From: Saccharopolyspora sp. NFXS83
GTDB lineage: Bacteria > Actinomycetota > Actinomycetes > Mycobacteriales > Pseudonocardiaceae
Length of the DNA: 64,000 bases
Assembly (NCBI RefSeq): GCF_026241095.1
Contig: NZ_JAPFGB010000012.1
Span: 124,001-188,000, forward strand
Direction of reading: 5' to 3'
The position numbers and the translations under genes were made by a program. Positions 45,803 to 60,847 of the stretch are shown here, in pieces; position 1 is the first letter of the stretch, and every line of letters begins with the position of its first letter. The notes under the pieces were generated by a model, which was not told the DNA's origin, did not search any database, and was given only the letters and a program-made list of their open reading frames with translations.

Positions 45803-47083
45803 TCAGGCGGACTTCTCGCGGCGCTCCCGCCGAGTGTTCTGCCTGGCCACGATCGTCGGGTTCACGTTCTCCCGCACCGTCTGCTCGGTGATGACGACCT
45901 TCGCGACGTCGGTGCGGCTGGGGATGTCGTACATCACCGGCAGCAGCACCTCCTCCAAGATCGCACGCAAGCCGCGCGCACCCGTGCCGCGCAGGATCGC
46001 CTGATCGGCGACCGCCTCCAGCGCCGTGCGGGTGAACTCCAGCTCGACGTTGTCCATCTCGAACAGCCGCTTGTACTGCTTGATCAGCGCGTTGCGCGGT
46101 TCGGTGAGGATCTGCACCAGCGACGGCTTGTCCAGGTTCGTCACGCTGGCCACCGTGGGCAGCCGGCCGATGAACTCGGGAATCAGCCCGAACTTGATGA
46201 GGTCCTCGGGCAGCACCTCCGAGAACCGGTCCGCGGAGTTCGCCTCCTCCTTCGAGCGCAGCTGCGCCCCGAAGCCGACGCTGGCCTTGCCGACCCGGTC
46301 CTCGACGATCTTCTCCAGCCCGGCGAACGCGCCGGCCACGATGAACAGCACGTTCGTCGTGTCGATCTGGATGAACTCCTGGTGGGGGTGCTTGCGACCG
46401 CCCTGCGGCGGCACGCTCGCCGTCGTCCCCTCCAGGATCTTCAGCAGCGCCTGCTGCACGCCCTCGCCGGAGACGTCGCGGGTGATCGACGGGTTCTCGC
46501 TCTTGCGGGCGATCTTGTCGACCTCGTCGATGTAGATGATGCCCGTCTCGGCGCGCTTGACGTCGTAGTCGGCCGCCTGGATGAGCTTGAGCAGGATGTT
46601 CTCGACGTCCTCGCCGACGTAGCCCGCCTCGGTCAGCGCGGTGGCGTCGGCGATGGCGAACGGCACGTTGAGCATCTTCGCCAAGGTCTGCGCCAGGTAG
46701 GTCTTCCCACAACCGGTGGGGCCCAGCATCAGGATGTTCGACTTCGCGAGCTCGACGTTCTCCTCGCGGCTGTCGCGCGTGCGCTCACCCATCTGGATGC
46801 GCTTGTAGTGGTTGTAGACCGCTACCGACAGGTTGCGCTTCGCCGGGTCCTGCCCGATGACGTACTGGTCCAGGAACTCGTGGATCTCCGTCGGCTTCGG
46901 CAGCTCGTCGAGCTTGACCTCACCGGCTTCCGCCAGTTCCTCTTCGATGATCTCGTTGCAGAGATCGATGCACTCATCGCAGATGTACACGCCGGGGCCG
47001 GCGATGAGTTTTTTCACCTGCTTCTGGCTCTTCCCGCAGAAGGAGCACTTCAGCAGGTCGCCGCCGTCACCGATACGTGCCAT
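45803..47083 (-). CDS. clpX: ATP-dependent Clp protease ATP-binding subunit ClpX
   Basis: A 426-residue AAA+ unfoldase that feeds proteins to ClpP1P2. The zinc domain is CSFCGK...CDECIDLC (residues 14-41), Walker A is GPTGCGKT (about 120), and Walker B is [10 protein letters not shown]; the IGF-type ClpP loop lies near SVGFGAQ. ATG 47083 ([13 protein letters not shown]) is the family start; ORF readings to 47110 add nonsense. It is downstream of clpP1P2 on the same strand but 489 bases away, with its own promoter-like region. Confidence 0.97.
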
Positions 47084-47143
47084 GACCGCTGACCCCGTCC
47101 CCTCCGGCACGCCGTCCGGTGACGTGCCTGACCGTATGTGCTC

Positions 47144-47180
47144 GTACCGACGGTACCTGCCGCTCCCCGAATTCGGGGAG
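47144..47180. promoter_or_regulatory. Two perfect palindromes in the clpX promoter region
   Basis: GTACCGACGGTAC (47144-47156) and CTCCCCGAATTCGGGGAG (47163-47180) lie 61-97 bases upstream of clpX. Both are perfect inverted repeats. They do not match the ClgR consensus as known, so a different regulator may act here. Confidence 0.45.
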
Positions 47181-47432
47181 ACTCGCAGACTCCGCTACCT
47201 GCCAGTCTCCGGCATGCGCCGGGCGCGGTGGTCGCCGAGGCCACCGTCCGGCGTGTCGCGAACGCCCGGCGTGCCGCCCGCACCAGCATCCCATTTTCCG
47301 GAACGCTCCCGCGACAGCCTTCCACCAGGTCCTTTCCCCAGATCGAGTTCTGCGCCCACCAGCGCTTCCAATCGCCGTCGTCCTCGCAGCGGCGAATCCG
47401 CCGAGCAGCGACCATCCACGCAACCGGCACCG

Positions 47433-47538
47433 CCGCGGGTTCTCAGCCGCCTTCTCGCGAGGGCGGCAATTCCCTCGTGGCGGAGGCCACTCGGGACATT
47501 GATCCCGCGGCGAGAAGGCGGCTGAGGTTCCGCTACCC
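47433..47538. repeat. Modular palindromic repeat, copy C
   Basis: Only the nested-palindrome module is present. Outer arms 47442-47458 (CTCAGCCGCCTTCTCGC) and 47510-47526 pair perfectly over 17 bp, although the arm sequence differs from copy A at four places, each compensated on the other arm. The inner hairpin is decayed. It lies between clpX and clpP2. The rest of 47084-47572 has the palindromes listed and no gene. Confidence 0.88.
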
Positions 47539-47572
47539 GGTCACCAACGCAGAACAAGGCTGGAGAAGCAGA

Positions 47573-48202
47573 TCAGGACTGGGCGGAGAGCTTGCGGTAG
47601 GGCAGCACCTCGTCGACGATGCCGTACTCCTGGGCCTGCTGGGCGGTCAGGATCTTGTCGCGCTCCACGTCCTGGCGGACCTGGTCCTTCTCCTTGCCGG
47701 TGTGCGTGGCGAGGGTGGACTCCATCAGGTCCCGCATCCGCTGCACCTCGTTGGCCTGGATCTCCAAGTCGGAGACCTGGCCGTAGATGCCCTCGGTCGA
47801 CGGCTGGTGGATCAGGATCCGCGAGTTCGGCAGCGCGAGCCGCTTGCCCTTGGTGCCGGCCGCCAGGATGACGGCCGCGGCCGACGCCGCCTGGCCCAGG
47901 CAGATCGTGCGCACGTCCGGGCGGACGTACTGGATGGTGTCGTAGATGGCCATCAGGGCCGTGAACGAACCACCCGGAGAGTTGATGTAGATCTGGATCT
48001 CGCGATCCGGATCGTCGGACTCCAGGAACAGCAGCTGCGCCATCACGTCGTTGGCCGACGCGTCGTCGACCTGGACGCCGAGGAAGACGATGCGCTCCTC
48101 GAACAGCTTGTTGTACGGGTTCGACTCCTTCACCCCGTACGCGGTGCGCTCGACGAAGGAGGGCAGCACGTACCGGGACTGCGGAAGCTGGAATGAGCTC
48201 AC
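47573..48202 (-). CDS. clpP2: ATP-dependent Clp protease proteolytic subunit ClpP2
   Basis: A 209-residue serine protease subunit that joins ClpP1 in a hetero-tetradecamer. Catalytic residues are Ser in [11 protein letters not shown] (about 110), His in ILIHQPS (about 135) and Asp in DVERDK. The [19 protein letters not shown] start matches actinobacterial ClpP2. GTG 48202 is 37 bases after the clpP1 stop, so the genes are co-transcribed. Confidence 0.95.
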
Positions 48203-48239
48203 GACAGGTGACTCCTCGTTACTAGGTCCGGGCGCGCGG

Positions 48240-48857
48240 TCAGCTGGGCAGGTTGGCTGCGGTGGCGACGTGGTCCACGAAGCCGTACTCGCGGGCCTCC
48301 TCGGCGGTGAACCAGCGGTCCCGGTCGGAGTCGGCCGTGATCTTCTCCACGGTCTGGCCGGTCTGCGCCGCGATCAGCTCCGCCATCTCCCGCTTGTGCT
48401 TGGAGAACACCTCGGCCTGGATCGCGATGTCGGAGGCCGTACCGCCCAGGCCCGCCGACGGCTGGTGCATCATGATCCGCGCGTGCGGCAGCGTGAAGCG
48501 CTTGCCCTGCGCACCGGCGGAGAGCAGGAACTGGCCCATCGACGCCGCGAAGCCCATCGCGACGGTGGCCACGTCCGGCTTGATCAGCTGCATGGTGTCG
48601 TAGATCGCCATGCCCGCGGTGACCGAACCGCCCGGCGAGTTGATGTAGAGCGAGATGTCCCGCTCCGGGTCCTCGGCCGCGAGCAGGAGCAGCTGCGAGC
48701 AGATCTGGTTGGCCATGGTGTCCTCGACCTGAGAGCCGAGGACGATGATCCGCTCCCGCAGCAAGCGCTCGTAAACCGAGTCGTTGAGCGAGAGCCCGTT
48801 CGTCGACCGCATGTGCGGCGTCGTGTCCGACGCCGGAACAGTCAGGTGCTGCGTCAC
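48240..48857 (-). CDS. clpP1: ATP-dependent Clp protease proteolytic subunit ClpP1
   Basis: A 205-residue ClpP subunit. Catalytic Ser is in [12 protein letters not shown] (about 104), His in IMMHQPSAG (about 129), Asp in [24 protein letters not shown] is the conserved N-terminal segment. GTG 48857, after AGGGGAGAC, is preferred over GTG 48908 because it has a ribosome binding site and gives the usual length. First gene of the clpP1-clpP2 operon, downstream of tig. Confidence 0.95.
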
Positions 48858-48987
48858 GTCTCCCCTGCCTTCTTCCACGATGAGGGCTTCCACAATGGAT
48901 CCGGCCACACCGGTCGCCGGGCGCCGGACCGTTGGGGATGCCTTGGCTTGTTCCGTTTCCGGTGATCCGCTTGCAACCGACCCTAAC

Positions 48988-49027
48988 GAACGTGGGCGGC
49001 ACCAGCTTCCCGGTACCGCCCACGTTC
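48988..49027 (-). terminator. tig terminator hairpin
   Basis: Arms GAACGTGGGCGG (48988-48999) and CCGCCCACGTTC (49016-49027) form a perfect 12-bp stem, about 75 bases past the tig stop. Confidence 0.75.
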
Positions 49028-49101
49028 GCTCAGAGCTTGTGCATTGCTCTCGCCGCTCGCGGATTCCTTCTGCTCACAGCGAAATCACCGCGAAAGAGTC
49101 G

Positions 49102-50520
49102 TCACTCCGACTTCGCGGCCGGGGTGGAACCCGCGGTCTCGTCGGAGGACTCGGCCTGCTCGACCTCGCCCTGCACGACCTCCGGAGCACCGTCGTCGTC
49201 CTGCGAGCCGAACAGCTCGTCCAGGTCGAGCTCGCTGCCGGAACCGTCGACCACAGTGGCCTGCCGCACGACCGAGAACAGCGCCTTGCTGCGCCGCACG
49301 TCGGCGTAGATCGCGCCGAGCTGGCCCGACTGCTGCGCCTGCTGGACGTACTGGTCCGGGCTCACGCCGAAGCGCTGGGCTTGGTAGATGATCCGCTCGG
49401 TGAGCTCGTTGTCGGAGACCGACACGTTCTCGGCGTCGGCGATCGTGTCCAGCACCAGCTGGGTGCGGACCGCCTTCTCCGCCTCCTCGCGGGTCTCCGC
49501 GTCGAACTGCTCGCGGGTCTGGCCCTGCGACTCCAGCCACTCAGCGAACTTGGCCTCGTCGTGGTCGAACGGGTGGATCGCGTCGTGCTCGCGCACCTCG
49601 ACCTCGGACGCCACCACGTTCTCCGGCAGCGGGACCTCGACGGTCTCCAGCAGCGCCTCGAGGACCTTGTCCCGCGCCTGCATGCCCTGCTGCATCCGCT
49701 TGACGCGGGCCAGGCGCTCCCGCAGGTCCGCGAGCAGTTCCTCGGCGGTGTCGAACTCGCTGGCCATCTGGGCGAACTCGTCGTCCGCCTCCGGCAGGTG
49801 CCGCTCCTTGACCGAGTCCAGCGTGACGGTCACCTCGGCGTCGCGGTCCGCGTACTCGCCGGCCACCAGCTTGGTGGTGAAGGTGTTGGTGTCACCCGCC
49901 GACGCGCCGATCAGCGCGTCGTCGATGCCCTCGATGAGCTGGCCGGACCCGATCTCGTAGGACAGGCCGCTGGTGCGCGCTTCCTCGACGTCCTCGCCGT
50001 CGACCGTGGCCGACAGGTCGATGCTGACGAAGTCGCCCTGCTGGGCCGGGCGCTCGACACCGGTCAGCGTGCCGAAGCGGGCGCGCAGCTCGTCGAGCTG
50101 CTCCTGCACCTCGTCCTCGGTCGTCTCGACGTCGTCCACCGACACGGACAGCTCACCGAACGCCGGAACGGTGATCTCCGGACGCACATCGACCTCGGCG
50201 GTGAACTCGATCTGGTCCCCGTCCTCGATCTTGGTGACCTCGATCTCCGGACGCCCGAGGGTGCGAACCTCGGTGCCGTTGATGGCCTCCATGTACTTGG
50301 CCGGAACCGCCTCGTTGACGACCTCGTCGAGCACGGGACCGCGGCCGATGCGGCTCTCCAGCACGCGGGCGGGAACCTTGCCCGGCCGGAAGCCCGGAAT
50401 GCGGACCTGGTTGGCGAGTGCCTTGTACGCGCGGTCGAAGTTCGGCTTGAGCTCGTCGAACGGCACCTCGACGTTGATCCGTACGCGCGTCGGGCTCAGG
50501 TGCTCGACGGTGCTCTTCAC
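49102..50520 (-). CDS. tig: Trigger factor
   Basis: A 472-residue ribosome-bound chaperone and peptidyl-prolyl isomerase. The ribosome-docking signature is GFRPGKVPARVLESRIG (residues about 43-60; the GFRPGK core is invariant), followed by the FKBP-like PPIase domain (QQGDFVSIDLSATVDG, SGQLIEGIDDALIG) and the alpha-helical C-terminal arms. The last 45 residues are an acidic, Gln-rich tail. GTG 50520 has AGGAG five bases upstream. It normally precedes clpP1P2. Confidence 0.97.
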   Translation of the reverse strand: MKSTVEHLSPTRVRINVEVPFDELKPNFDRAYKALANQVRIPGFRPGKVPARVLESRIGRGPVLDEVVNEAVPAKYMEAINGTEVRTLGRPEIEVTKIEDGDQIEFTAEVDVRPEITVPAFGELSVSVDDVETTEDEVQEQLDELRARFGTLTGVERPAQQGDFVSIDLSATVDGEDVEEARTSGLSYEIGSGQLIEGIDDALIGASAGDTNTFTTKLVAGEYADRDAEVTVTLDSVKERHLPEADDEFAQMASEFDTAEELLADLRERLARVKRMQQGMQARDKVLEALLETVEVPLPENVVASEVEVREHDAIHPFDHDEAKFAEWLESQGQTREQFDAETREEAEKAVRTQLVLDTIADAENVSVSDNELTERIIYQAQRFGVSPDQYVQQAQQSGQLGAIYADVRRSKALFSVVRQATVVDGSGSELDLDELFGSQDDDGAPEVVQGEVEQAESSDETAGSTPAAKSE

Positions 50521-50660
50521 GTGGTCTCCTAGTGCGAACGTGCTTCGGACCCCGGCGGTGCCGGCGGGAGCGCGACCCCACATCGGGTGCACTCCGGCGA
50601 CGCCGGGCTGACCTCCGAGTCTATTGCCCAGGCGAGACCGAGGCCGGGCCGGGGGTTGCC

Positions 50661-50927
50661 TCAGCGCGCCCCGCGGGCCGAGAACACCGCCTCACCGACC
50701 ACGTCACCCGCACCGCCCACGGCCGGCACGGCCGCCGAGCCCAGCGGCGTCGGAATCACCGCCGTCCCGATCCCCACCGTCGGCGGGACGATCTGCCTGC
50801 CGGGTCCGTCGACGAACAGCGACACCCCGATCAGCAGCACCACCGCGAGCATCAACAGCACCCCCACCAGCAAAGCGGGGAGCCGGACGCGTCGCGCGAC
50901 CCTCGACACAGCAACGTGAACGTGCAC
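50661..50927 (-). CDS. Small membrane-anchored hypothetical protein
   Basis: A reading frame of 88 residues from GTG 50927 (or 70+ from later GTG 50909) with one strong transmembrane helix (ALLVGVLLMLAVVLLIGVSL) preceded by arginines and followed by a Gly/Pro/Val-rich exported tail (VPPTVGIGTAVIPTPLG). Codons are G/C-ending. No family is recognised; it sits between tig and tRNA-Pro. Confidence 0.5.
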   Translation of the reverse strand: MHVHVAVSRVARRVRLPALLVGVLLMLAVVLLIGVSLFVDGPGRQIVPPTVGIGTAVIPTPLGSAAVPAVGGAGDVVGEAVFSARGAR

Positions 50928-51069
50928 GACCACGAAATCGACCTGCCGCTGCCGACCGTTACCGAATGCCGGGCGGATCACCCGCAGGAATCACGTTGCG
51001 TGATCTCCATCGCGACCCCGGAACGCAAAAAGGAGGCGCGGCCGCACGACCACGCCTCCCGGAGGACCG

Positions 51070-51143
51070 TCGGGGTGGCGGGATTTGAACCCACGACCCC
51101 TCGCACCCAAAGCGAGTGCGCTACCAAACTGCGCCACACCCCG
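51070..51143 (-). tRNA. tRNA-Pro (TGG anticodon)
   Basis: A complete 74-nt cloverleaf on the minus strand: acceptor CGGGGTG/CACCCCG, D-arm GGCGCAGTTTGGTAGCGC, anticodon loop with TGG between CTCGC and GCGAG, and the T-loop GGTTCAAATCC. CCA is not encoded. Confidence 0.97.
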
Positions 51144-51305
51144 TCCCACCTGCAACGCACCCCGACCGCACGGGTGCGTTGCGGAGAGCCTATCGCGACC
51201 GGTTAAGCTAGGGCACGCAAGGTCGGAAACACCCCGGCGATCACCGTCCGGACATCGACATCGATGCCCATCGGCGCACCACCGAGGAACGTCCTGACCA
51301 GGCAT

Positions 51306-51376
51306 GCGGGCGTAGCTCAATGGTAGAGCCCCAGTCTTCCAAACTGGCTACGCGGGTTCGATTCCCGTCGCCCGCT
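51306..51376 (+). tRNA. tRNA-Gly (TCC anticodon)
   Basis: A 71-nt cloverleaf: acceptor GCGGGCG/CGCCCGC, D-arm GCTCAATGGTAGAGC, anticodon loop CTTCCAA between CCAGT and ACTGG, T-loop GGTTCGATTCC. CCA is not encoded. It lies divergent from tRNA-Pro, 162 bases away. Confidence 0.97.
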
Positions 51377-51566
51377 CAGAGCACCTACCGGCAAGTGCGG
51401 CGCCCATTCCCGAACGCGGGAGGGGCGCCGTTTCGCATTCGCGCCGACCAACGAGCGTTTCGCCCGAACTCGCCGCCGAACGTCTCGTGCAGGACGACGG
51501 CGCGGGCGGCCGATCGAGCGGGATCGTCCGGGGCGACCCGGCGCCGGACTCCGCTCATCGCCGTGG

Positions 51567-52163
51567 TCACAGAACGGCCAGGAGCATTGCGGTCATCGCC
51601 GCGGCCATCACCGCGTGCGGGAAGGAAGCCACCCGCAGCGCCGCGCGGTCGCGGCCGGTCGGAGGCGCGAGGCCCACCGAGAGCAACCGGGCGGGCGGCC
51701 CCACGACGGCGACGACGACCGTGACGACGAGATCGACGGCGAACCAGGCCGCGAGCAGGACGACGACCACGGACACGGCTCCGCCGGGAGCCCCGTCGTG
51801 CCCGTGGGCGTGCCCCGGGGAGTGGCCGACGAGCACTGCCAGGCCCATGGCGGCGAAGGCGAGCAGGTGGTTCGCGAGTCCAGCCCGACGCCCCGGCCCC
51901 GCGGGCGGGCGAGCCAGGGCGGCGCCGGCGCCGAGCATCCCGGCCACCACGACGGCGAGGACCCACGACCGGGCCGTCGATCCCCACAGCGACGTGAACA
52001 TCACGGCCATGGCCAGGTTCATCACCAGGTGCGCCGCGTCGGCCTCTCGGGTGGTCCAGACGGTGTCGATCCGCCGCCCCGCGATGAGGCGGACCGCTCC
52101 GACTGCGGCGGCGGCGACCAGCACGACGACGAGCGCCGCGTCCGGCGCTCCCATTCGGCACAT
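51567..52163 (-). CDS. DUF5134 membrane protein
   Basis: A 198-residue protein with about six transmembrane helices of the DUF5134 type (HLVMNLAMAVMFTSLW near residue 50), and a His-rich loop GHSPGHAHGHDGAP between helices 4 and 5 that could bind metal. ATG 52163 has no ribosome binding site; a -10-like TATGCT lies seven bases upstream, so the transcript may be leaderless. It is divergent from the LinD-like operon across a TetR-type operator, which suggests shared control. Confidence 0.75.
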   Translation of the reverse strand: MCRMGAPDAALVVVLVAAAAVGAVRLIAGRRIDTVWTTREADAAHLVMNLAMAVMFTSLWGSTARSWVLAVVVAGMLGAGAALARPPAGPGRRAGLANHLLAFAAMGLAVLVGHSPGHAHGHDGAPGGAVSVVVVLLAAWFAVDLVVTVVVAVVGPPARLLSVGLAPPTGRDRAALRVASFPHAVMAAAMTAMLLAVL

Positions 52164-52176
52164 GGGTCGAGCATAG

Positions 52177-52196
52177 TTGACACGATCCCGTTTCAA
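52177..52196. promoter_or_regulatory. TetR-type operator, divergent DUF5134 / LinD-like promoter
   Basis: TTGACACGATCCCGTTTCAA matches the TetR-gene operator TTGACACGAGGCCGTGTCAA at all arm positions but one. It lies between the two divergent starts and contains a TTGACA -35-like hexamer. Confidence 0.7.
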
Positions 52197-52238
52197 CATC
52201 AGGCTGTCGAGGTTCCCCGGAGGACGAGGAGGACCGTG

Positions 52239-52388
52239 ATGGCGTGCTGCGTCGCGCTGGCCCTGGTGATCGCTCACGTGCGTGAGCTGTTGTTCCGGTT
52301 GCGCCCTTCGGCGGCGCCGCCGCCGACCCCCTTCGCCCCTCCGGCTCGCCGCCCCATGCCTGGCGTGCCGACCGGAAAAAGTCGATGA
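52239..52388 (+). CDS. 49-residue membrane peptide, translationally coupled to the LinD-like enzyme
   Basis: ATG 52239 follows GAGGAGG six bases upstream and encodes MACCVALALVIAHVRELL, a short hydrophobic helix, then a Pro/Ala-rich tail. Its TGA overlaps the ATG of the LinD-like gene (ATGA), a signature of coupled translation, so it is likely real despite its size. No family is recognised; it could anchor or gate the enzyme. Confidence 0.7.
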   Translation: MACCVALALVIAHVRELLFRLRPSAAPPPTPFAPPARRPMPGVPTGKSR

Positions 52389-54334
52389 GCGCGCCGGTGC
52401 CCGCCGGAGAGCCCGAGGCGACGCGGGACGGAAACCGGGCCGTCACTGTGCTGCTGCCCGACGTGCCCGCGTTCGGCCCGGTGACGGCGCGACGAATGCG
52501 ACGGGCGCTGGCGGCCTACGCCGTGGTGTGGCTGGCCGGATCCCTGCCGGGGTGGCTTGGCGCCGGCCCCGCGGCGGTCGCCTTCGGCCACGGACTGGCC
52601 CTGCCGGGCGGGGGTTTCCTGCTCGACGGGTCGTTCGCGGCAGCGGCGCTGACCGTCGTCACGTTCGTGCTGTCCCTGGCGCTGTGGTGGTACGCGGGGC
52701 CGGTCGTGCTGCCGCCGCTGGCGTGGGTGGCGGGTGCGGCGGTCGCGGCGCTCACGGTCTCGTCGCGGGAGGTCGCCGGCGCAGCGGCATATCTGGTACC
52801 GGCCCTGCCGGTGGCCGTGCTGGCGCTCTCACTCGCCGCGCACCTCGTGCGGCATCGTGGCCAGCACCGACGACGGTCGGTGCTGAACGCCGAACTCGCG
52901 CGGACGTCGTTCGTCGTCAGCGGCCCGCCCGACCTCGAATCGGGCCCGCCGGTGCGGGAGAGCTCCCCGGAGGATCTGGCGCACTTGCGCTATGCGCTCG
53001 ACGTCGCCCTGCAGCCGCTCGACAGGTTCGAGGGGTTCATCGTCCTGGAGCAGTACCGCGAGGGCGCGCTCCGGTACCAGCTGACCTCGCTCGGAACCGG
53101 CCTGGCGATGTCGCAGTACACCCGCACCCCCGCCTTCTCCGGCTACCTGGCGGAGGCCCAGCGCAACGCGATCGAGAAGATGCTCGACCGCCGCGTGTGG
53201 GGCTACTGGCGGACGGAGAACCTCTGGGGCAATCTCTCGACCACGCGCGACCCGCTGGCCACCGACGAGAACATCATGCTGACCGGCTGGCACGGCACGA
53301 TGCTCGGCTTCTACGCACTGCTCAACGACCTGCGCTACGCGGAACCGGGCGCGCTCACCTATCGCTGGTCCGCCGACGAGGCGTACCCGCACGACCACCA
53401 CGCCGTCGCGCGGCAGATCCACGACGGCATGCGCCGGTCGGACTACGCACTCATCCCCTGCGAGCCGAACTGGATCTACACCGTCTGCAACGCCTTCGGG
53501 ATCAACGCGATGCTCGGCCACGATCGCGCCCACGGAACGGGCCACGTCGAGGACCTGCGCGAACGGCTCCGGCACTCCTACGAGCACGAGTTCTTGCGGC
53601 CCGACGGCCGCATCGTGGGCGTCCGCGCTCGCCACCTGGGGTTGTCGTGGAACTTCTGGTCGGGCACGGCGGTGCAGCTCAACACCGTCTACTGGATGCA
53701 CGCGGCCTTCCCCGACCTCGCGCAGCGGGCGTGGTGGCTGCTGCGGCGCAACGAGCTCACCCTGCGCGACGGGATCCCTGCCCTCCCTCCCCGTGCGTCG
53801 AACCGGGTGGACGTCGGCTCCTACCGGCTCGGCCGGGACACCTTCGCCCAGGTCGCGATCACGATGGCGGCCCGCGAGATCGGCGACGGCGAGATGGCCG
53901 ACGCGGCTGCCGCGCTGCTGGCGGAACGGGAGCCGATCGAGGAGCGCAACGGCTGCCGTCGCTTCGCCGACGCGTCGCCGATGGTCAACTTCTACGCGGT
54001 CCTCGGCCGGTTCGGCAGGCAGCACGCGCTGCGGGACCTGCTCGGCCACGGAGGAGTCCCGCAGGCGTGGCGCACCGGACCGCGGCTGACCGAGGCCGCC
54101 TACCCGGACGTGCTCGTCGCCCGGGCGGTGACCGACGGTCGTGCGCTCGACCTCGTCCTCCGCCCGGGAGCGGGCCCGGTCCGGACGGTGCTCGCGGTGG
54201 ACCGGCTCGTGCCGGGTTCGGCGTACCGGGTCGCGGGCGCGTGCGCGGACGAGGTCATCGCCGACGCGCGGGGCCGGGCCGTGGTCGAGGTCGACCTGGA
54301 CGGTCGTCGCGAGCTGCGGCTCTACCCGTCCTGA
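52385..54334 (+). CDS. Linalool dehydratase-isomerase (LinD)-like enzyme with N-terminal membrane domain
   Basis: A 649-residue protein. Residues 35-160 hold about four transmembrane helices; residues about 190-560 form an (alpha/alpha)6 barrel like LinD of Castellaniella defragrans. Shared segments are RRVWGYW (about 269), DENIM (about 294) and IPCEPNWIYTVCN, with Cys359 and Cys368 nine residues apart like the catalytic Cys171/Cys180 pair; a histidine in GWHGTMLG corresponds to a LinD active-site histidine region. LinD hydrates myrcene and isomerises linalool/geraniol. A related activity on an alkenol or terpenoid at the membrane is likely; the exact substrate is open. Convergent with the TetR gene (13-base overlap). 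Confidence 0.8.
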   Translation: MSAPVPAGEPEATRDGNRAVTVLLPDVPAFGPVTARRMRRALAAYAVVWLAGSLPGWLGAGPAAVAFGHGLALPGGGFLLDGSFAAAALTVVTFVLSLALWWYAGPVVLPPLAWVAGAAVAALTVSSREVAGAAAYLVPALPVAVLALSLAAHLVRHRGQHRRRSVLNAELARTSFVVSGPPDLESGPPVRESSPEDLAHLRYALDVALQPLDRFEGFIVLEQYREGALRYQLTSLGTGLAMSQYTRTPAFSGYLAEAQRNAIEKMLDRRVWGYWRTENLWGNLSTTRDPLATDENIMLTGWHGTMLGFYALLNDLRYAEPGALTYRWSADEAYPHDHHAVARQIHDGMRRSDYALIPCEPNWIYTVCNAFGINAMLGHDRAHGTGHVEDLRERLRHSYEHEFLRPDGRIVGVRARHLGLSWNFWSGTAVQLNTVYWMHAAFPDLAQRAWWLLRRNELTLRDGIPALPPRASNRVDVGSYRLGRDTFAQVAITMAAREIGDGEMADAAAALLAEREPIEERNGCRRFADASPMVNFYAVLGRFGRQHALRDLLGHGGVPQAWRTGPRLTEAAYPDVLVARAVTDGRALDLVLRPGAGPVRTVLAVDRLVPGSAYRVAGACADEVIADARGRAVVEVDLDGRRELRLYPS

Positions 54335-54969
54335 TCGCCGGGGTGTCCGGCGCCATCGGGCCGTATCGGGGCGCACGCCGCGACGCCGATCAGGACGAGC
54401 TGGTCGACGAGCGCGTCGTCGCCGATGTCCAGGTCGTCGCGCAGGCGCCGCTCGACCAGCTCGGTGACCCCCGCGACGAGGACCAGCAGGGTGGTCGCCG
54501 GGTCCTGGGCTCCGCCGCCGGACCCGGCCAGCTCAGCGGACAGGACCGCGACGAACCCGTCGAGCGCGGCGTTGCGGCGCGCTCGCAGGGCCGGGTGCGC
54601 GTGGGCCTCGGCCCACAAGCGCGACCACCCCCGGTCCGCGGACAGCGTCGAGAGCACGGCGCGCACCGCTGCGCGCACCCGCAGCTCGAACGTCGAGGGG
54701 GCGGCGCTGAGCGCCTCGGCGAGTGCCGCGCCCATGGTCGACACCGCTTCGTCGAACAGCGCCACCAGCAGGGTGTCCCTGCCGTCGAAGCTCTCGTAGA
54801 AGTAGCGCTTCGTCAGCTCCGCCCGGCGGCACACCGCATCGACGGAGACGCCGGCGGTGCCGTTCTCGGCGATCTGGTCGCGCCCCGCGGCGAGCAGGCG
54901 CGCACGGCGTGCGGCGGTCCGGTCCGCGGCGCTGACGCCGCGGTGCGGTCGGGTCACGGTGCGGGACAT
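54322..54969 (-). CDS. TetR family transcriptional regulator
   Basis: A 215-residue regulator. The helix-turn-helix is GTAGVSVDAVCRRAELTKRYFYESF (residues about 36-60, written in parts: SVDAVCRRAELTKRYFYESF), followed by a helical ligand domain. ATG 54969 sits between two palindromic operators and the divergent MpaB-type gene. A third operator copy lies upstream of the LinD-like operon, so it probably represses the whole locus and responds to a hydrophobic ligand. Confidence 0.92.
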   Translation of the reverse strand: MSRTVTRPHRGVSAADRTAARRARLLAAGRDQIAENGTAGVSVDAVCRRAELTKRYFYESFDGRDTLLVALFDEAVSTMGAALAEALSAAPSTFELRVRAAVRAVLSTLSADRGWSRLWAEAHAHPALRARRNAALDGFVAVLSAELAGSGGGAQDPATTLLVLVAGVTELVERRLRDDLDIGDDALVDQLVLIGVAACAPIRPDGAGHPGDQDG

Positions 54970-54980
54970 GACCTCATCTT

Positions 54981-55032
54981 GACACGAGGTCGTGTCGGGT
55001 AGCATCGTGAAGTTGACACGAGGCCGTGTCAA
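54981..55032. promoter_or_regulatory. Two TetR-type operators between tetR and the MpaB-like gene
   Basis: GACACGA-GG-TCGTGTC (54981-54996) and TTGACACGAGGCCGTGTCAA (55013-55032) are near-perfect palindromes with centres 34 bp apart, one next to each divergent start. The second contains TTGACA on both strands, so binding would block both promoters. Confidence 0.85.
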
Positions 55033-55059
55033 CAATACATCGAGGACGGAGACCGCTCG

Positions 55060-55971
55060 ATGAAGAGTGCACCGGGAGCGGGCTCGGCCCGAACACCACG
55101 ACGGAGGTGGCGGATCGGCGGCCTGGAGCGGCGGCGCATCGCCCGGCTCGACCCGGCCGCTGACCACACCGAGATCACCCGGTCGAGCCTGCAGACGTTG
55201 CACGGCGACCGGCGCCTGGTCCTCGCCATGTTCACGGTGGCGTTCATGAAGCAGGTCGCCGTACCGACGATGGCCCGGATCCTGTGGCGACGCGGTACCG
55301 GCGACATCGTCCAGAACACGGCGCTGCGCAACGACGACACCATCGTCTTCTTCGGTCGCTTCCTCGACTTCGGGCCGGACTCGCCGGAGGGCATCGCCTG
55401 GATCGAGCGGATGAACGAGATCCACGCCCACTTCCCGATCCGCAACGACGACGCGCTCTACACGTTGAGCACCCTGGCCCTCGACCCCGCGAACATCGCC
55501 GCCACCCTGGGTGCGCGGCCCTTCTCGCCGACCGAGATCGAGGCGCACTGGCGGTTCTGGCGCGCGGTCGCCGAGCGGCAACGCCTCCACGACATCCCCG
55601 CCACCCGCGAGGACATGCGGTCCTGGGCACTCGACTACGAGCGTCGCGAATTCGCGCCGAGCGCGGCCGGCCGGGCGGTCTCCGACGCCCTGGCCGAGGA
55701 CTTCACCGCCCGGGTCCTGCCCGCCCGCCTCCGGCCGTTCGGGCGCGAGGTCCTCTCCGCGATCAGCCCCGCGAACCTGCGGGAAACCCACGGACTGCCT
55801 CGTCCTCGGCCCGCGGTCCGGCTGGCAGTGCGGACCGCGAGCCGCGCCTACCTCGACGGCGTCGTCCTGCGCCCCGTGCCGCTCGACCGGTCCTTGGCCC
55901 GGACCTTCGGGACCAGCCGCACCGACACCGGCGACCCGGCGGTGCTCGGGTACCGCCACCACGGCCGGTGA
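55060..55971 (+). CDS. MpaB/DUF2236-family heme oxygenase-like protein
   Basis: A 303-residue protein of the DUF2236 family (MpaB, latex-clearing protein Lcp relatives), which use heme to cleave C=C bonds in prenyl chains. The family region is NEIHAHFPIRNDDALYTLSTLAL (about residue 127-149; histidine and tyrosine positions conserved) with HWRFWRAVAERQRLHDIP after it. ATG 55060 has GGAGA upstream. It is divergent from and presumably repressed by the TetR protein. With the LinD-like enzyme it suggests stepwise attack on an unsaturated terpenoid. Confidence 0.8.
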   Translation: MKSAPGAGSARTPRRRWRIGGLERRRIARLDPAADHTEITRSSLQTLHGDRRLVLAMFTVAFMKQVAVPTMARILWRRGTGDIVQNTALRNDDTIVFFGRFLDFGPDSPEGIAWIERMNEIHAHFPIRNDDALYTLSTLALDPANIAATLGARPFSPTEIEAHWRFWRAVAERQRLHDIPATREDMRSWALDYERREFAPSAAGRAVSDALAEDFTARVLPARLRPFGREVLSAISPANLRETHGLPRPRPAVRLAVRTASRAYLDGVVLRPVPLDRSLARTFGTSRTDTGDPAVLGYRHHGR

Positions 55972-56041
55972 GCGCGCGCTCTCCCCGTGCGCGGTCGGCG
56001 AGCGGGCTCGGCGGCGCGCACTCCGAACAGCGCCGCTTCGC

Positions 56042-56674
56042 CTAGGCGAGGGCTCCTAGTACGCCCAGGGCGGTTCTGATGGGGTCCAGGACCAGGGGGG
56101 CGTTTTCGGGGCGGGTGGTCGTGTCGACGGCTGAGCAGCCGTTGATCACTGCTGTGACGCCCGCTCGGCCCGCCTCTTCCAGCGGTGCGCGCATCGCGTC
56201 CGACCACCTGGCCGGGTCGGTGATGTCGTCGACCGTCAGGTCCAGGACCGCCACGTCGTGGAACGAGCCCTCCCAGCCGTAGTCGGCGATGCGCCGGTGG
56301 AGTTCCGCCGCGATGGCTTCGTTCCGGGTGACCGCTGCGATCCGGTGGCCCGCGGCGACCGCGGCGCCGACCGTGAGCCGGAGCAGGCCCAGGGCCGGCC
56401 GGCCGCCGATGGTGCCGCCGTCGGCGGGGACCGCCGGGTCGAGGACGCAGTCCGGCAGGACGGCGTCGCAGTCCGGTGCCGCGGCCAGGGCCTCGGCGAC
56501 CAGCTCCGTCGAGCGGTGCACGTCCTGCTCGGTGTTGAGGGCGCGCGGGCCGTGCGGGGGCAGGTCGGACAACACCACGCGCACCCCGGCCGGGGACAGG
56601 GCGTCGTAGCGGGCTTGGCGCCGGGCGACCTCCTGAGGTCCGACGACGATCGGCGTGACGGCTTGGACGAGCAT
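56042..56674 (-). CDS. Asp/Glu racemase superfamily protein (maleate isomerase/hydantoin racemase-like)
   Basis: A 210-residue cofactor-free racemase-fold enzyme. The two catalytic cysteines are in AVLPDCVLDP (about residue 73) and VINGCSAVDTT (about 182). ATG 56674 has GAGGAGG upstream. It is the last gene of the operon, 11 bases after a PrpD-like gene. Within this operon isomerisation of an unsaturated dicarboxylate (maleate isomerase-like) is plausible, but hydantoin or aspartate racemisation cannot be excluded. Confidence 0.82.
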   Translation of the reverse strand: MLVQAVTPIVVGPQEVARRQARYDALSPAGVRVVLSDLPPHGPRALNTEQDVHRSTELVAEALAAAPDCDAVLPDCVLDPAVPADGGTIGGRPALGLLRLTVGAAVAAGHRIAAVTRNEAIAAELHRRIADYGWEGSFHDVAVLDLTVDDITDPARWSDAMRAPLEEAGRAGVTAVINGCSAVDTTTRPENAPLVLDPIRTALGVLGALA

Positions 56675-56685
56675 GGCGTTCCTCC

Positions 56686-58044
56686 TCATCGGACGTGGGT
56701 GAGCGCGCCGAGCGCGCGCAGTTCCGCCGCGGCGTCGGCCGCGTCCGGCAGCGCGGCGCAGCGCTCCCGGATCCCGGCCACCACTTCGGCGTCGCCGAGC
56801 AGGTCGCCGAGGACGCGGACGCGGTCGTCGGCGCTGAACGGGTGGTGCGCGGCGTCGCCGATCGGGTTCGGCGCCTCCGCGACGGCGTGACCGTCCGGTG
56901 TGGACGCGGTGAGCCGGACCGGTCGTTCGGCGGGCAGCCGGGCGTCCAGGTCCCGCGCCGCCCGCACGGTCACCCGGCGGGCCAGCGCCGCCGTGGCGGG
57001 GTCGGCGAGCGCGTCCGCGGTGAACTCGGCCGGGCCGACCCGGCCGCGCCGCAGCGCGGTCGCGACGACGTACGGCAGCGAGAACCGGGCGGCCAGCGGA
57101 GTCGGCCAGTCCGTCCGGGCCAGCCCGGCCCCGAGCGAATGGATCTCGACGAGGACCTCCTCGGGATCCGGCCCGGCCCGCTCCCGCAAGGACAGCGCGA
57201 CGTCGATCGCGGCGTGCGTGAACGAGCACGAGGAGTGCTGCTTGAAGTAGCCGCCGAGGACCTCCCAGCGCTGCCCCTGCTCGTCGCCGAGCACCGCAGG
57301 CTCGAGCTCGCCGAGCAGATCGCCGAGCGCGTCCGCGGCGACACCGGTGAGATGCCCGCTACCGGAGGCGGCCAGCCGGGCCGCGACCAAGCCGGACTGG
57401 TTGGCGGCGCCGACCCACGCGTCCCGGACCGGGTTGCCGTCGAGCGCGGCGGAGAACGGCCCGGCGACGGGGAGCCCGCCGCCCGCGTCGATCGCGACGG
57501 CGGTCTCCACCGGGCCCAGCCCCAGCAGGCGGGCGCAGCCCGCCGCAGATCCGGTGACGCCCCAGTTGCCGTGCGGGTGCGTGCCCGGCCGGAGCCGGGT
57601 CGCCCGGCCGAACCGGGCGGCGACCTCGTAAGCGGCGAGCAGCGCGGCGCACAGCTCGGTTCCGCTCGCGCCTCGCCGCGCGGCCAGCGCGAGCACGGCG
57701 GGGAAACCGTGCGCGGCCGGATGTCCCGCGGCGAGGCGGTGACCGTCGTCGAGTTCGAGGCGCACCGCGGCGATCGCGTTCAGCCAGGCCGCGGCGTCGA
57801 CCGACGTGGTGCGACCCGTCCCGAACAGCGGCGACGGCCCCTCCGGCGGATCCCAGGCGGTGACCAGCGCCCGCTGCTCGGGTTCCCTCGAACCGAGCGC
57901 GGTGACCGCGGCGGAGTCGACGAGCACGGTCAGCAGCCGCTCCCGGACCTCGGCGGGGACCTCCGGCCAGCGCAGCTCGGAGACCCACCGGCCGAGCCCG
58001 CCGACCGCGGACCGGACCGCGTCGGCGTGCTCGGTCCCGCTCAT
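56686..58044 (-). CDS. MmgE/PrpD family protein 1
   Basis: A 452-residue protein of the family that includes 2-methylcitrate dehydratase, cis-aconitate decarboxylase and iminodisuccinate lyase. Seen are GHPAAHGFPAVLALAARRGASG (near residue 110, in parts), NWGVTGSAAGCARLLGL and FKQHSSCSFTHAAIDVAL, the last corresponding to the KxYpxc active-site region. ATG 58044 overlaps the MFS stop. Two paralogues in one operon imply different steps or a heteromer. Confidence 0.85.
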   Translation of the reverse strand: MSGTEHADAVRSAVGGLGRWVSELRWPEVPAEVRERLLTVLVDSAAVTALGSREPEQRALVTAWDPPEGPSPLFGTGRTTSVDAAAWLNAIAAVRLELDDGHRLAAGHPAAHGFPAVLALAARRGASGTELCAALLAAYEVAARFGRATRLRPGTHPHGNWGVTGSAAGCARLLGLGPVETAVAIDAGGGLPVAGPFSAALDGNPVRDAWVGAANQSGLVAARLAASGSGHLTGVAADALGDLLGELEPAVLGDEQGQRWEVLGGYFKQHSSCSFTHAAIDVALSLRERAGPDPEEVLVEIHSLGAGLARTDWPTPLAARFSLPYVVATALRRGRVGPAEFTADALADPATAALARRVTVRAARDLDARLPAERPVRLTASTPDGHAVAEAPNPIGDAAHHPFSADDRVRVLGDLLGDAEVVAGIRERCAALPDAADAAAELRALGALTHVR

Positions 58045-59327
58045 GCCCGCTCGCCCGCGGGGGCGTTGGCGGGTGTCGCGGCGAGAGCGGGTTCGCGCGG
58101 GACCAGCAGCATCAGCAGCGCGCCCGCGACCGCCAACCCGGCCATCACGACGAAACCGCTGGTGAAGCTGCCGGTACCGGCGACGATGAAGCCCATCACC
58201 GACGGGGCGACGATGCCGGAGGAGGCGAAGGCCGCGTCGGCGAAGCCCGCCGCGCTGCCCGGCTGGTCGGGGGCCGCGTCGATCGAGGCGACCCACCAGA
58301 TCCCGCCGGTGATGAACCCGAAGCCGACGCCGAGCGAGATCGAGATCAGTGCCACGGTGAGCGTCGGGGCGATCGCGAGCGGGATCAGCGAGCACCCGGC
58401 CAGCAGCAGCGCCACGCCCATCACGGCGAACCGGGTGCGGATGCGCGGGCTGCGCCGGTACACCCGGTCCACGAGGTACCCGCCGACCAGCGAGCCGACG
58501 ATGCCGCAGGCCCAGGGAGCGATGGAGAACGCACCGGCCTCCTCCACGGAGAGCCCGTAGGCGTTCGAGAGGAAGGATGGCAGCCAGTACATGAAGCCCC
58601 AGAACATGAAGCCCCAGGCGAAGTAACCACCGGCGACGACCCACAGGTTCCGGTTGGTCAGCAGCGGGCGCCACCGGACCGAGGACCGGCCCGACGCGGA
58701 GTCCGACTCCTGCCCCTGCGCGATGAGCGCGCGCTCGGCGTCGTTGACCCGCGAGGACTCCTCCGGCAGGTCGCGCAGCAGCACCACGGCGAACAGCGCC
58801 CACACCACGCCGATCAGCGCCAAGGTCCAGAACATCCCGCGCCAGCCGACGAGATCGGTCAGCCAGGTCAGCAGCGGCCCCGAGATCAGCAGGCTGCCGG
58901 AGACCGCGACCCCGCCGCACAGCGCCAGCGCGACGCCGCGTTCGCGGATCGGCAGCCACCGGCTCACCGTCCGGGTCGCGGCCGGGAACGCGGGCGACTC
59001 GCCGATCCCCAGCAGCAGCCGGATGACGAGCAGCCCGGCGAACGATCCGGCGACCGGGATGAGGGCGGTGGTCACCGAGAACAGCGCGATCGCGGCGAGC
59101 AGCACCCGGCGGGTCCCGAACCGGTCCACCAGCGGTCCGGACACGAACGCGGCGACCATGTAGCCGATGGAGAAGACGGAGCTGATGATCCCGTACTGCG
59201 CGGTGGTGATCCCGAACGCCTGCTCCAGCGGTTCCACCGCGTAGGAGACCGCGCTGCGGTCGATGTAGTTGATGACGATGAGGCCTACCACCAGCCCCAG
59301 CGTCACGAAGCGAAACCGTGTGCTCAT
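58041..59327 (-). CDS. MFS transporter, anion:cation symporter (ACS) type
   Basis: A 428-residue carrier with twelve helices. VIVNYIDRSAVSYAV-type start (LIVINYIDRSAVSYA) and LLGIGESPAFPAATRTVSRWLP match the ACS family, which takes up organic anions such as glucarate, phthalate, tartrate or hexuronates. It lies between two PrpD-like genes in the catabolic operon and is the obvious uptake system for its substrate. Confidence 0.9.
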   Translation of the reverse strand: MSTRFRFVTLGLVVGLIVINYIDRSAVSYAVEPLEQAFGITTAQYGIISSVFSIGYMVAAFVSGPLVDRFGTRRVLLAAIALFSVTTALIPVAGSFAGLLVIRLLLGIGESPAFPAATRTVSRWLPIRERGVALALCGGVAVSGSLLISGPLLTWLTDLVGWRGMFWTLALIGVVWALFAVVLLRDLPEESSRVNDAERALIAQGQESDSASGRSSVRWRPLLTNRNLWVVAGGYFAWGFMFWGFMYWLPSFLSNAYGLSVEEAGAFSIAPWACGIVGSLVGGYLVDRVYRRSPRIRTRFAVMGVALLLAGCSLIPLAIAPTLTVALISISLGVGFGFITGGIWWVASIDAAPDQPGSAAGFADAAFASSGIVAPSVMGFIVAGTGSFTSGFVVMAGLAVAGALLMLLVPREPALAATPANAPAGERA

Positions 59328-59361
59328 GCTCGTAATCCCTTGATTCCGATGGGGAATCGTT

Positions 59362-59381
59362 CGCTCCGTTCGCTCGGAGCG
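59362..59381 (-). promoter_or_regulatory. Hairpin in the MFS/PrpD intergenic gap
   Basis: CGCTCCG-TTCGCT-CGGAGCG forms a perfect 7-bp stem in the only sizable gap (92 bases) of the operon, a possible attenuator or RNA-processing site. Confidence 0.4.
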
Positions 59382-59419
59382 GACGAGACGTCGTTGTCCT
59401 GTCGGGGTTCGATCAGCTG

Positions 59420-60847
59420 CTAGCCGGTCGGGGCGGAGGAGGCGAGCGCGGCTTGGACCCCGGCCATCACCTCGCCGACCGCGCGGTCGTCGCGCAGGTC
59501 CCACACCGAGGTGACGATGTCGGCCGCCCGGTCCGGTCCGACCGCCCGTCCCGCGTTGCCGGTGAACTTCGCCGCCAGCTCCTCGGACGACAGCGGGCGC
59601 TGCGGTCCGCCGCGGTTCTCGGTGATCCGCTCGGTCACCGAGCCGCCGTCGGCGAGCTCGGCGGTGAGCACCGCGGGGAACTGGCGCGGGAACCCGGCCG
59701 TGGCCTGCTCGTCGGCGACGACCCGGACCCGCCCGGCCAGCTCCAACCGGCGGGGATCGGCCGCGGCGGCGTCGGTGAAGTCCTCGTGGAACACGCCGAG
59801 CCCGCCACCGCCGATCAGCGCGGCGGCCACGGTGTAGGGACCGGAGAACGCCGCGTGGTAGCCGGAGCGCGGATGCCGCTTCTCCTCGGCCGGTTCGGCG
59901 ATGGTGCGCAGCACCGGGGCGGGCACCCCGAGCACCAGCTCGCGGACCTGCTCGGCGGTCACGCCCCGCTCGCGCAGCCGGAGGGCGGCGTCGATGCCCG
60001 CGTGGGTGAAGTGGTTGCAGGGGTAGGGCTTGAAGAACACGCCTGGCGTCTCCCACTGCTCGCCGAGCCCGTCGGTGACCCGATCCGGGTGCACCCGCTC
60101 ACCGCAGAACGCGCGCAGGAAACCGAACCTGCCCTCGATCACGGTCGGCGGGCCGGTGAGGCCGTGGCGCGCCAGGTCCGCGGCGGCCACCCCGGAGTGC
60201 GCGGCCCAGCCGCAGTGCACCCGCTTGATCGTGCCGCCGGTGCGGTTCGCCTCGATCACCCCGGCGCCCATGCTCGCGGCGATGCCGACCGCGGAGGCCA
60301 GCTGATCCGCGTCGAGGCCCTGGACCATGCCGGAGGCCACGGCGGCGCCGATCGCACCGCAGATCGCCGTGGCGTGCTGCCCGTGCTCGAAGAAGACCGA
60401 GTTGCCCAGCTCCTCGTCGTAGCCCGCCATGCCGAGCCGGCAGGTGACCTCGATGCCCATCGCGGTCGCGGCCAGCAAGGCCCGGCCACCGGCGCCGGTG
60501 CGCTCCGCCGTGGCGAGCGCGGCCGGGACGACCGAGGCCGACGGGTGCAGGACCGACGGCAGGTGGGTGTCGTCGAAGTCGAGGCTGTGCGCCAAGGTTC
60601 CGTTGACCAGCGCGGCCGACGGGGCGGGCACCCGATCCGGCAGCCCGATCGCGGTCGCCGCGGGGGCGCCGCCCCACTCGGCGGCCACCGCCCCGGCGAT
60701 CCGGGCGGGTTCCTCGCGGGTGGCCGCGAGCGAGTTCCCGAGGACGTCGACGATCCGGCGGACCACGTCCTCGGCCAAGGTGTCGTCGACGCCGCCGGCC
60801 GCGAGCCGGGCGCCGACCTCGCCGATCCGCTGCGCGGGAGTGGTCAT
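59420..60847 (-). CDS. MmgE/PrpD family protein 2
   Basis: A 475-residue protein of the PrpD fold. Features are LAHSLDFDDTHLPSVLHPSA (active-site DDTH, near residue 90), GGTIKRVHCGWAAHSGV and FFKPYPCNHFTHAGIDA (KPYPxC, near residue 300). DDTH and KPYPxC are complete, so it should be catalytic, unlike paralogue 1 whose equivalents are less clear. ATG 60847 overlaps the cyclase stop. Dehydration or decarboxylation of a tricarboxylate-like acid is typical of the family. Confidence 0.88.
   Translation of the reverse strand: MTTPAQRIGEVGARLAAGGVDDTLAEDVVRRIVDVLGNSLAATREEPARIAGAVAAEWGGAPAATAIGLPDRVPAPSAALVNGTLAHSLDFDDTHLPSVLHPSASVVPAALATAERTGAGGRALLAATAMGIEVTCRLGMAGYDEELGNSVFFEHGQHATAICGAIGAAVASGMVQGLDADQLASAVGIAASMGAGVIEANRTGGTIKRVHCGWAAHSGVAAADLARHGLTGPPTVIEGRFGFLRAFCGERVHPDRVTDGLGEQWETPGVFFKPYPCNHFTHAGIDAALRLRERGVTAEQVRELVLGVPAPVLRTIAEPAEEKRHPRSGYHAAFSGPYTVAAALIGGGGLGVFHEDFTDAAAADPRRLELAGRVRVVADEQATAGFPRQFPAVLTAELADGGSVTERITENRGGPQRPLSSEELAAKFTGNAGRAVGPDRAADIVTSVWDLRDDRAVGEVMAGVQAALASSAPTG

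Follow-up and report, generated by a model that had tools for sequence, protein, structure and literature searches.

What does a peptide of 49 residues do when its gene overlaps that of a membrane-anchored enzyme of the Ldi/Lis type? The question is raised by a cassette of Saccharopolyspora sp. NFXS83, which was analysed within a stretch of 64,000 nucleotides (contig NZ_JAPFGB010000012.1, positions 124,001 to 188,000 of the forward strand; hereafter, the window). An earlier note on this DNA had described a candidate new five-gene system under TetR control. The five genes lie where that note placed them, and the four larger proteins have Pfam matches. We read the cassette as a self-regulated terpenoid-alcohol module, in which a Lis-type enzyme would be served by a dedicated dithiol partner peptide, and we give this reading an even chance of being right.

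The enzyme gene (52385-54334, + strand) encodes a protein of 649 amino acids (aa) that, by its sequence, belongs to the Ldi family. It matches Pfam PF18566 with an E value of 9.1e-83 (278.8 bits versus a gathering cut-off of 26.1), with the Ldi domain spanning residues 230-530. LinD of Castellaniella defragrans (structures 5hlr, 5g1u and 5i3t) was matched already by a single-sequence search with the window enzyme (7e-8), and structure 5hlr was matched at 2.9e-26 with a profile built from 45 sequences. In the profile alignment C359 and C368 fall onto the catalytic pair of LinD, which stands in the same CEPx6C context. Both cysteines, nine residues apart, as well as the CEPNW motif, are invariant in all 45 aligned sequences (the window's included), a set gathered with six patterns, one of which spans the cysteine-pair region. 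The LinD homology, the cysteine spacing and the flanking motif claimed earlier were thus confirmed.

The first 155 residues of the enzyme form a hydrophobic domain, with a grand average of hydropathy (GRAVY) of +0.97 versus -0.35 for the remainder. The four helices previously assigned to this domain are a fair description: in a hydropathy scan, three clear helices passed the threshold in the window protein, and a fourth, earlier helix was seen in several relatives. The fusion itself, which had been presented as a new feature, is not one, because the same architecture was described in 2016 for the linalool isomerase Lis of Thauera linaloolentis 47Lol (ENO87364, EC 5.4.4.4; PMC4791888). Lis has 644 aa, a membrane domain with four helices predicted in the first 139 aa and a cytosolic Ldi-like domain, with GRAVY values of 0.94 and -0.406. 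It differs in lying beside atu genes (PMC4847356); more than 150 bp separate lis from the genes next to it (PMC4791888), and the available text of PMC4791888 does not mention a small partner. LinD, in contrast, is a periplasmic protein with a signal peptide and a C48-C101 disulfide cap, while the window enzyme has the membrane domain and no signal peptide. The position of LinD C101 is occupied by Asp in the window enzyme, as expected since its Ldi part would be cytosolic; C48 falls outside the alignments. We conclude that the window enzyme is probably a membrane enzyme that rearranges terpene alcohols. In an order-level genome sample, matches were found in 3 of 399 genomes, with LinD among them and Lis not.

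Just ahead of the enzyme gene lies pep49 (52239-52388, + strand), which encodes a dithiol peptide beginning with M-A-C-C. Its stop codon overlaps the enzyme start (ATGA at 52385), so the coupling reported earlier stands; the label of membrane peptide is plausible but borderline, with a single hydrophobic stretch within residues 1-21. No family in Pfam or NCBIfam matches the peptide at E 0.1 or better. The first ~44 residues are conserved in actinobacterial peptides, and M1, C3, C4, R15, F32, P34 and R38 are invariant in 13 aligned sequences. Many peptides beyond the window's clade have, by eye, a common Trp-containing motif further along, and partner peptides are often only 36-57 residues long. 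When 150 genomes of the family (the window's own included) were searched with a peptide profile, strong matches were obtained only in G000, G120, G042 and G075. These are the same four genomes in which a close, full-length enzyme is found, a patchy distribution. The best match outside the cassette, at E 0.004, was treated as chance.

The peptide is also found as a part of larger proteins. In Nocardioides, Aeromicrobium, Jatrophihabitans and Smaragdicoccus its N-terminus heads a membrane protein of 118-197 aa. Gene maps suggested a fusion of the peptide to Ldi in Nocardioides, which was rejected: a stop and a frame change lie between the two, leaving the 118-197 aa protein as a separate one. 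The M-x-C-C peptide likewise forms the N-terminus of CtaG-like membrane proteins in loci L036 (7012-7971), L100 and L108, and of DgkA-type kinases in L055 (9743-10195) and L123 (2746-3306). Mutual homology of the long peptide proteins, DUF5134 and mycobacterial CtaG-like proteins was rejected, with hhalign probabilities below 1 percent.

The ATGA overlap in the window and the short, leader-like length could also be explained if the peptide were without a protein function of its own and served merely as a leader whose translation is coupled to that of the Ldi gene. We consider this very improbable, because the peptide heads longer membrane proteins, its cysteine pair is invariant and, in 12 of the 47 loci described below, its gene follows the Ldi gene. 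Differences by codon position also argue against a leader, with a third-position excess in two pairs (7/7/22 for the window versus L005 and 8/9/24 for L003 versus L004); the third, close pair, the window versus the G120 peptide, gave 5/3/5.

To what extent does the peptide accompany the enzyme elsewhere? A scan for M-x-C-C with a hydrophobic run revealed a peptide open reading frame (ORF) adjoining Ldi genes in Proteobacteria and Mycobacterium too. Such an ORF was present within 1.3 kb of the Ldi gene, on the same strand, in 47 of 55 loci, versus 0.34 expected. It lies upstream in 35 loci and downstream in 12, and reads M-x-C-C in 44 and M-C-P-x-C in three (two Nocardia, one Patulibacter). The motif was defined after pep49 and a Mycobacterium innocens locus had been seen, and the MCPxC form was added later; elsewhere in ~800 kb it matched twice, once beside a second Ldi copy. 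Four of the eight misses are L017 and L040, in which the Ldi gene is at the contig end, L041, with a TTG-start copy of the peptide, and L033, with a copy 1.8 kb downstream.

Further loci were obtained in a PF18566 search of 345 genomes of the window's class and 385 genomes of the class of G498, and from three plasmids. The peptide was present in 14 of 16 non-duplicate loci of the same branch, all except L109 and L110; L094-L096 (which repeat L011, L010 and L014) and L114-L118 (which repeat loci of the first set) were not counted as new. In L130 the peptide lies 1.1 kb downstream of the match, in L060/L061 an MCPVC on the opposite strand was left uncounted, and a single opposite-strand match in L132, obtained with a looser pattern, fails the final motif. 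The Ldi proteins of L097, L102 and L104 are without a membrane domain, yet are preceded by M-x-C-C proteins of 246, 230 and 55 aa, respectively. Ten PF18566 matches without the CEP...C pattern (L106, L111-L113, L120, L124-L128), which were left unclassified, showed no peptide in their loci.

Because counterparts adjoin most of the related enzymes examined, and these come from distant bacteria, the peptide is probably an overlooked partner of related membrane enzymes; judged by gene neighbourhood, the peptide-enzyme partnership is well supported. What was a curiosity to the earlier reader is a part that recurs across phyla. A literature search, for which most subscription journals were outside reach, returned no description of such a peptide or of actinomycete Ldi cassettes among the matches listed. 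As far as the Pfam, NCBIfam and literature searches tell, the peptide family is undescribed.

A possible role for the peptide is suggested by the biochemistry of its partner's relatives. C170 and C179 of LinD must be reduced (PMC6600392); passages of PMC12455561 yielded no catalytic residues. Lis required a reductant; when made alone in E. coli it was membrane-bound and inactive, and a truncated form with the cytosolic part, although soluble, likewise lacked activity (PMC4791888). A dedicated dithiol partner could explain both the need for a reductant and the inactivity of Lis made alone. We propose that a TetR repressor would occupy three operators in the cassette until an inducer, which is probably the terpenoid itself, releases it, and that derepression would lead to synthesis of a Lis-type membrane isomerase/dehydratase. 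By analogy with LinD and Lis, this enzyme would use acid-base chemistry on the C359/C368 pair to interconvert tertiary and primary allylic alcohols of the linalool/geraniol type, or to dehydrate them. The peptide, which is translated immediately before the enzyme, would serve as its dedicated small membrane partner, an association established by comparing genomes, and the vicinal cysteines of the peptide would most likely keep the catalytic pair reduced, or complete the active enzyme. A heme oxygenase of the MpaB type, added in this lineage, may then cleave a C=C bond of the substrate or product, as expected from its family, with the DUF5134 protein as a putative accessory membrane protein. 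What our comparisons show is that peptide and enzyme genes go together, that the peptide is conserved, that CPxC can replace CC in it, and that SCO genes occur in a parallel position; we infer the redox or activating role of the peptide, the class of substrate and the reaction of the oxygenase.

A different neighbour was observed beside predicted-soluble members of the superfamily, i.e., those with no helix predicted ahead of the Ldi domain (L063-L068, L122, L132). The dithiol peptide was found in none of nine loci, these eight and that of Castellaniella LinD (recognised by a full-length match to PDB 5i3t), with the flank covered for only ~1.5 kb in L063-L068 and L122. In tblastn, a SCO1/SenC gene lies within ~1.5 kb of all eight predicted-soluble genes, a count that includes the gene of L132, itself the query; four cases (L132, L122, L066, L063) were confirmed with Pfam. 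Around Castellaniella LinD there was no SCO match, and no dithiol peptide within ~9 kb. In a tree of 87 Ldi domains, LinD and the SCO group are split from the rest (99/98), peptide-less members are scattered, and the LinD branch is long, so that its exact placement is unsure. In L132 the Ldi-like gene has a TetR-family gene as a further neighbour. The Allorhizobium SCO copy (166 aa) begins at the SCO domain and may lack the N-terminal anchor. In the same tree, the Ldi row of L046, a metagenome-assembled genome (MAG) record titled Klebsiella pneumoniae, adjoins that of the gammaproteobacterial MAG L025; the title is probably a misassignment.

These observations could be united by a general rule, to which we assign somewhat less than an even chance. 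Enzymes of the Ldi superfamily would have dedicated dithiol partners that maintain or set the state of the catalytic thiols, and would be inactive without them. Lis-type enzymes would be paired with a membrane microprotein of the M-x-C-C/M-C-P-x-C kind, and the soluble enzymes with a SCO-type protein, whose two cysteines lie close together; LinD, without such a neighbour, would be an exception and depend on the periplasm instead.

The main alternative to a thiol-reducing role is the handling of copper, as genes for CtaG-like and SCO proteins are repeatedly found next to Ldi genes. The peptide and its SCO/CtaG counterparts would, in that case, handle copper(I) or another metal, and these Ldi enzymes would bind a metal at their cysteine site or need one there. 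The SCO1/SenC genes beside all eight predicted-soluble genes are in line with this, as are the CtaG-like proteins near Ldi genes, some with the M-x-C-C N-terminus in the three loci listed above. Both CC and CPxC could plausibly bind Cu(I). The peptide itself has no detectable homology to either of these cytochrome-oxidase assembly factors, though some CtaG-like proteins begin with it. LinD, however, works by cysteine acid-base catalysis according to its published mechanism (PMC6600392), UV-VIS spectra of Lis preparations were without sign of a cofactor, and Lis was activated by reductants generally (dithionite, DTT, ferrous iron and, weakly, cysteine; PMC4791888). We regard the metal explanation as unlikely.

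The TetR-family regulator (215 aa; 54322-54969, - strand; TetR_N 3e-8) overlaps the Ldi gene tail to tail. When the five proteins were compared with NCBIfam, the only extra matches were TetR-family ones, all under the curated cut-offs. Three copies of an operator, TTGACACG-N4-CGTGTCAA, are present: operator 1 (52177-52196, one mismatch) in the gap between DUF5134 and the peptide-Ldi operon, operator 2 (54979-54998, two mismatches) immediately upstream of tetR, and operator 3 (55013-55032, a perfect copy) 34 bp away from operator 2, in the gap that separates tetR from the oxygenase gene. With up to three mismatches, the window contains these three matches versus 0.20 expected, and at least three were found in 1 of 100 shuffles, which bears out the three matching operators of the earlier note. 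With up to two mismatches, the whole 6.9-Mb genome has the three cassette operators and one site elsewhere. All three sites found in G120, a congener whose enzyme is 97 percent identical, are in its cassette; in each of the L002 and L005 genomes two sites are in the cassette and one is a stray, G042 has one site, and G075 has none with this consensus. The lone stray in the window genome (L091:4680, equivalent to C69:51679) has a paralogous tetR (36 percent) on one side and, on the other, an ORF that by eye resembles a short-chain dehydrogenase/reductase (SDR). A wider regulon was rejected, the strays in the three genomes being taken as sites of other regulators or chance sites.

Seventeen actinobacterial loci have a tetR homologue in the vicinity of the Ldi gene (L002-L016, L038 and L054; the match in L013 is weak, 3e-5), and operator pairs 34-37 bp apart, upstream of tetR or of the peptide gene, were found in L002, L004, L005, L006, L007 and L015. 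Palindromic operators in promoters flanked by tetR, and rare elsewhere in the genome, are the pattern of an autoregulated local regulator. Because the operators are nearly confined to it, the cassette is, as predicted from these sites, a small, self-regulated TetR regulon.

The two outermost genes of the cassette are less constant. The MpaB/Lcp-family (DUF2236) protein (303 aa; 55060-55971, + strand), a putative heme b alkene-cleaving oxygenase, matches MPAB_Lcp_cat (PF09995) at 1.7e-13 (51.6 bits versus a gathering cut-off of 23). Its only significant solved relative is 8s1j, a trans-anethole oxygenase (phmmer 9e-14, I-H dipeptide aligned), and the family assignment made earlier is thus upheld. 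MpaB-family proteins have been reported to be heme b enzymes with C=C-cleaving activity (PMC12724181, which cites Purwani 2024 for bacterial heme C=C-cleaving oxygenases); 8s1j is reportedly linked to the latter work. The flavoprotein trans-anethole oxygenase of PMC3774712 may differ from the 8s1j protein. The window oxygenase shares its Pfam family with 8s1j, Nro1 of Gordonia and LcpK30, at low identity, and differs from them in having operators in common with an Ldi enzyme. On the other side of the cassette, the DUF5134 integral membrane protein (198 aa; 51567-52163, - strand; PF17197, 2e-15) is encoded divergently from the peptide-Ldi operon. PDB profile searches with the DUF5134 and CtaG-like alignments gave nothing usable.

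The five-gene composition, proposed earlier as a system, is not a conserved unit. The MpaB gene is adjacent to the Ldi gene in just 3 of 55 loci (plus G120 and G042), and DUF5134 is nearby in four (L003-L006, plus G120; in L006 its reading frame is downstream of the Ldi gene on the same strand). The co-occurrence that the earlier note suggested checking was found in close actinobacterial relatives for the peptide-Ldi-TetR core, and in few of them for MpaB and DUF5134. The two genes might then be chance neighbours, with the unit consisting of peptide, Ldi and TetR only, as most relatives are without them next door and the window genome has eight MpaB-family and two DUF5134-family genes (a third genomic position matching DUF5134 overlaps that of the window copy). 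With eight members in this genome, and some family match in 71 of the 150 family genomes, only the MpaB orthologue is informative. Close orthologues (at least 69 percent) are present in three of the four cassette genomes (G000, G120, G042) and in none of the 146 others; in G075, the fourth, there was no MpaB match at 1e-10. Operators 2 and 3 moreover lie in the promoter region of the oxygenase, and operator 1 in that of DUF5134. Chance neighbourhood thus seems to us rather improbable. The oxygenase and DUF5134 genes stay with the enzyme in only a part of the clade.

Which alcohol would the enzyme act on? In Mycobacterium, Nocardia and Sphingobium relatives, SDR and/or aldehyde dehydrogenase genes are located near the Ldi gene (Pfam on one example each), which fits a geraniol-type catabolism from alcohol to aldehyde to acid. 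In one mostly alphaproteobacterial clade, DgkA-type kinase genes stand beside the Ldi gene and the dithiol peptide in eight non-duplicate loci (L131:4751-7900, L123, L047, L051-L053, L055 and L056), accompanied by UppS in L131 and L123. This hints at a polyprenol substrate in that clade, and the substrates of MpaB and Lcp relatives include prenyl chains and rubber, which they cleave (PMC12724181). The window enzyme might, by extension, tailor long polyprenols of lipid carriers or membrane isoprenoids instead of acting on exogenous monoterpenols. However, UppS and DgkA genes are both missing from the window cassette, other clades have the SDR and aldehyde dehydrogenase genes, and a cassette present in 4 of 150 family genomes is unlike a housekeeping lipid function. 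The polyprenol explanation has, in our estimate, a small chance of being correct, and our best guess for the substrate of the window enzyme is a C10-C15 allylic alcohol.

Several points weigh against a self-regulated terpenoid-alcohol module with a dedicated dithiol partner. Copper handling is what SCO and CtaG proteins are chiefly known for. Four of the 55 loci with adequate flanks (L013, L024, L034, L043) are without the peptide, as is the near-identical pair L109/L110, even within ~7-8 kb. No operator site scoring 12 or more was found in 7 of the 17 actinobacterial loci (L008, L011, L013, L014, L016, L038, L054), the oxygenase is rarely adjacent to Ldi genes, and the window cassette is without an alcohol or aldehyde dehydrogenase gene. 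The proposed kinship with Lis rests on architecture and common similarity to LinD. Basic residues after the hydrophobic stretch suggest that the peptide cysteines may face outward or lie in the membrane; direct electron transfer is weakened as a mechanism because they would sit away from the cytosolic catalytic pair. The authors of PMC4791888, finally, propose misfolding to account for inactive recombinant Lis.

On one side the cassette is flanked by tRNA-Pro and tRNA-Gly genes (window positions 51069-51143 and 51306-51377). Window positions 46923-60981 align with G120 at 96 percent DNA identity across 14 kb, and there is thus no sign of insertion after the split of the two genomes. Decayed-looking Ldi genes were seen at two other loci: a second copy in Actinomycetospora soli (L004:8001-9938), with an in-frame stop, and an apparently decayed copy in L062 (G098), with a match limited to residues 554-647.

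Ldi and Lis are of interest for the production of dienes and linalool from alcohols, and the small partner peptide makes the problem of inactive recombinant Lis directly testable. The cassette, with its TetR protein and operators, is also a possible terpenoid sensor. A peptide partner links the need of Lis for a reductant, the reduced cysteines of LinD and the SCO/CtaG genes beside Ldi genes. If the general rule of dedicated dithiol partners is true, the peptides would constitute a new class of enzyme-activating microprotein, and their absence would explain why Lis is inactive in E. coli.

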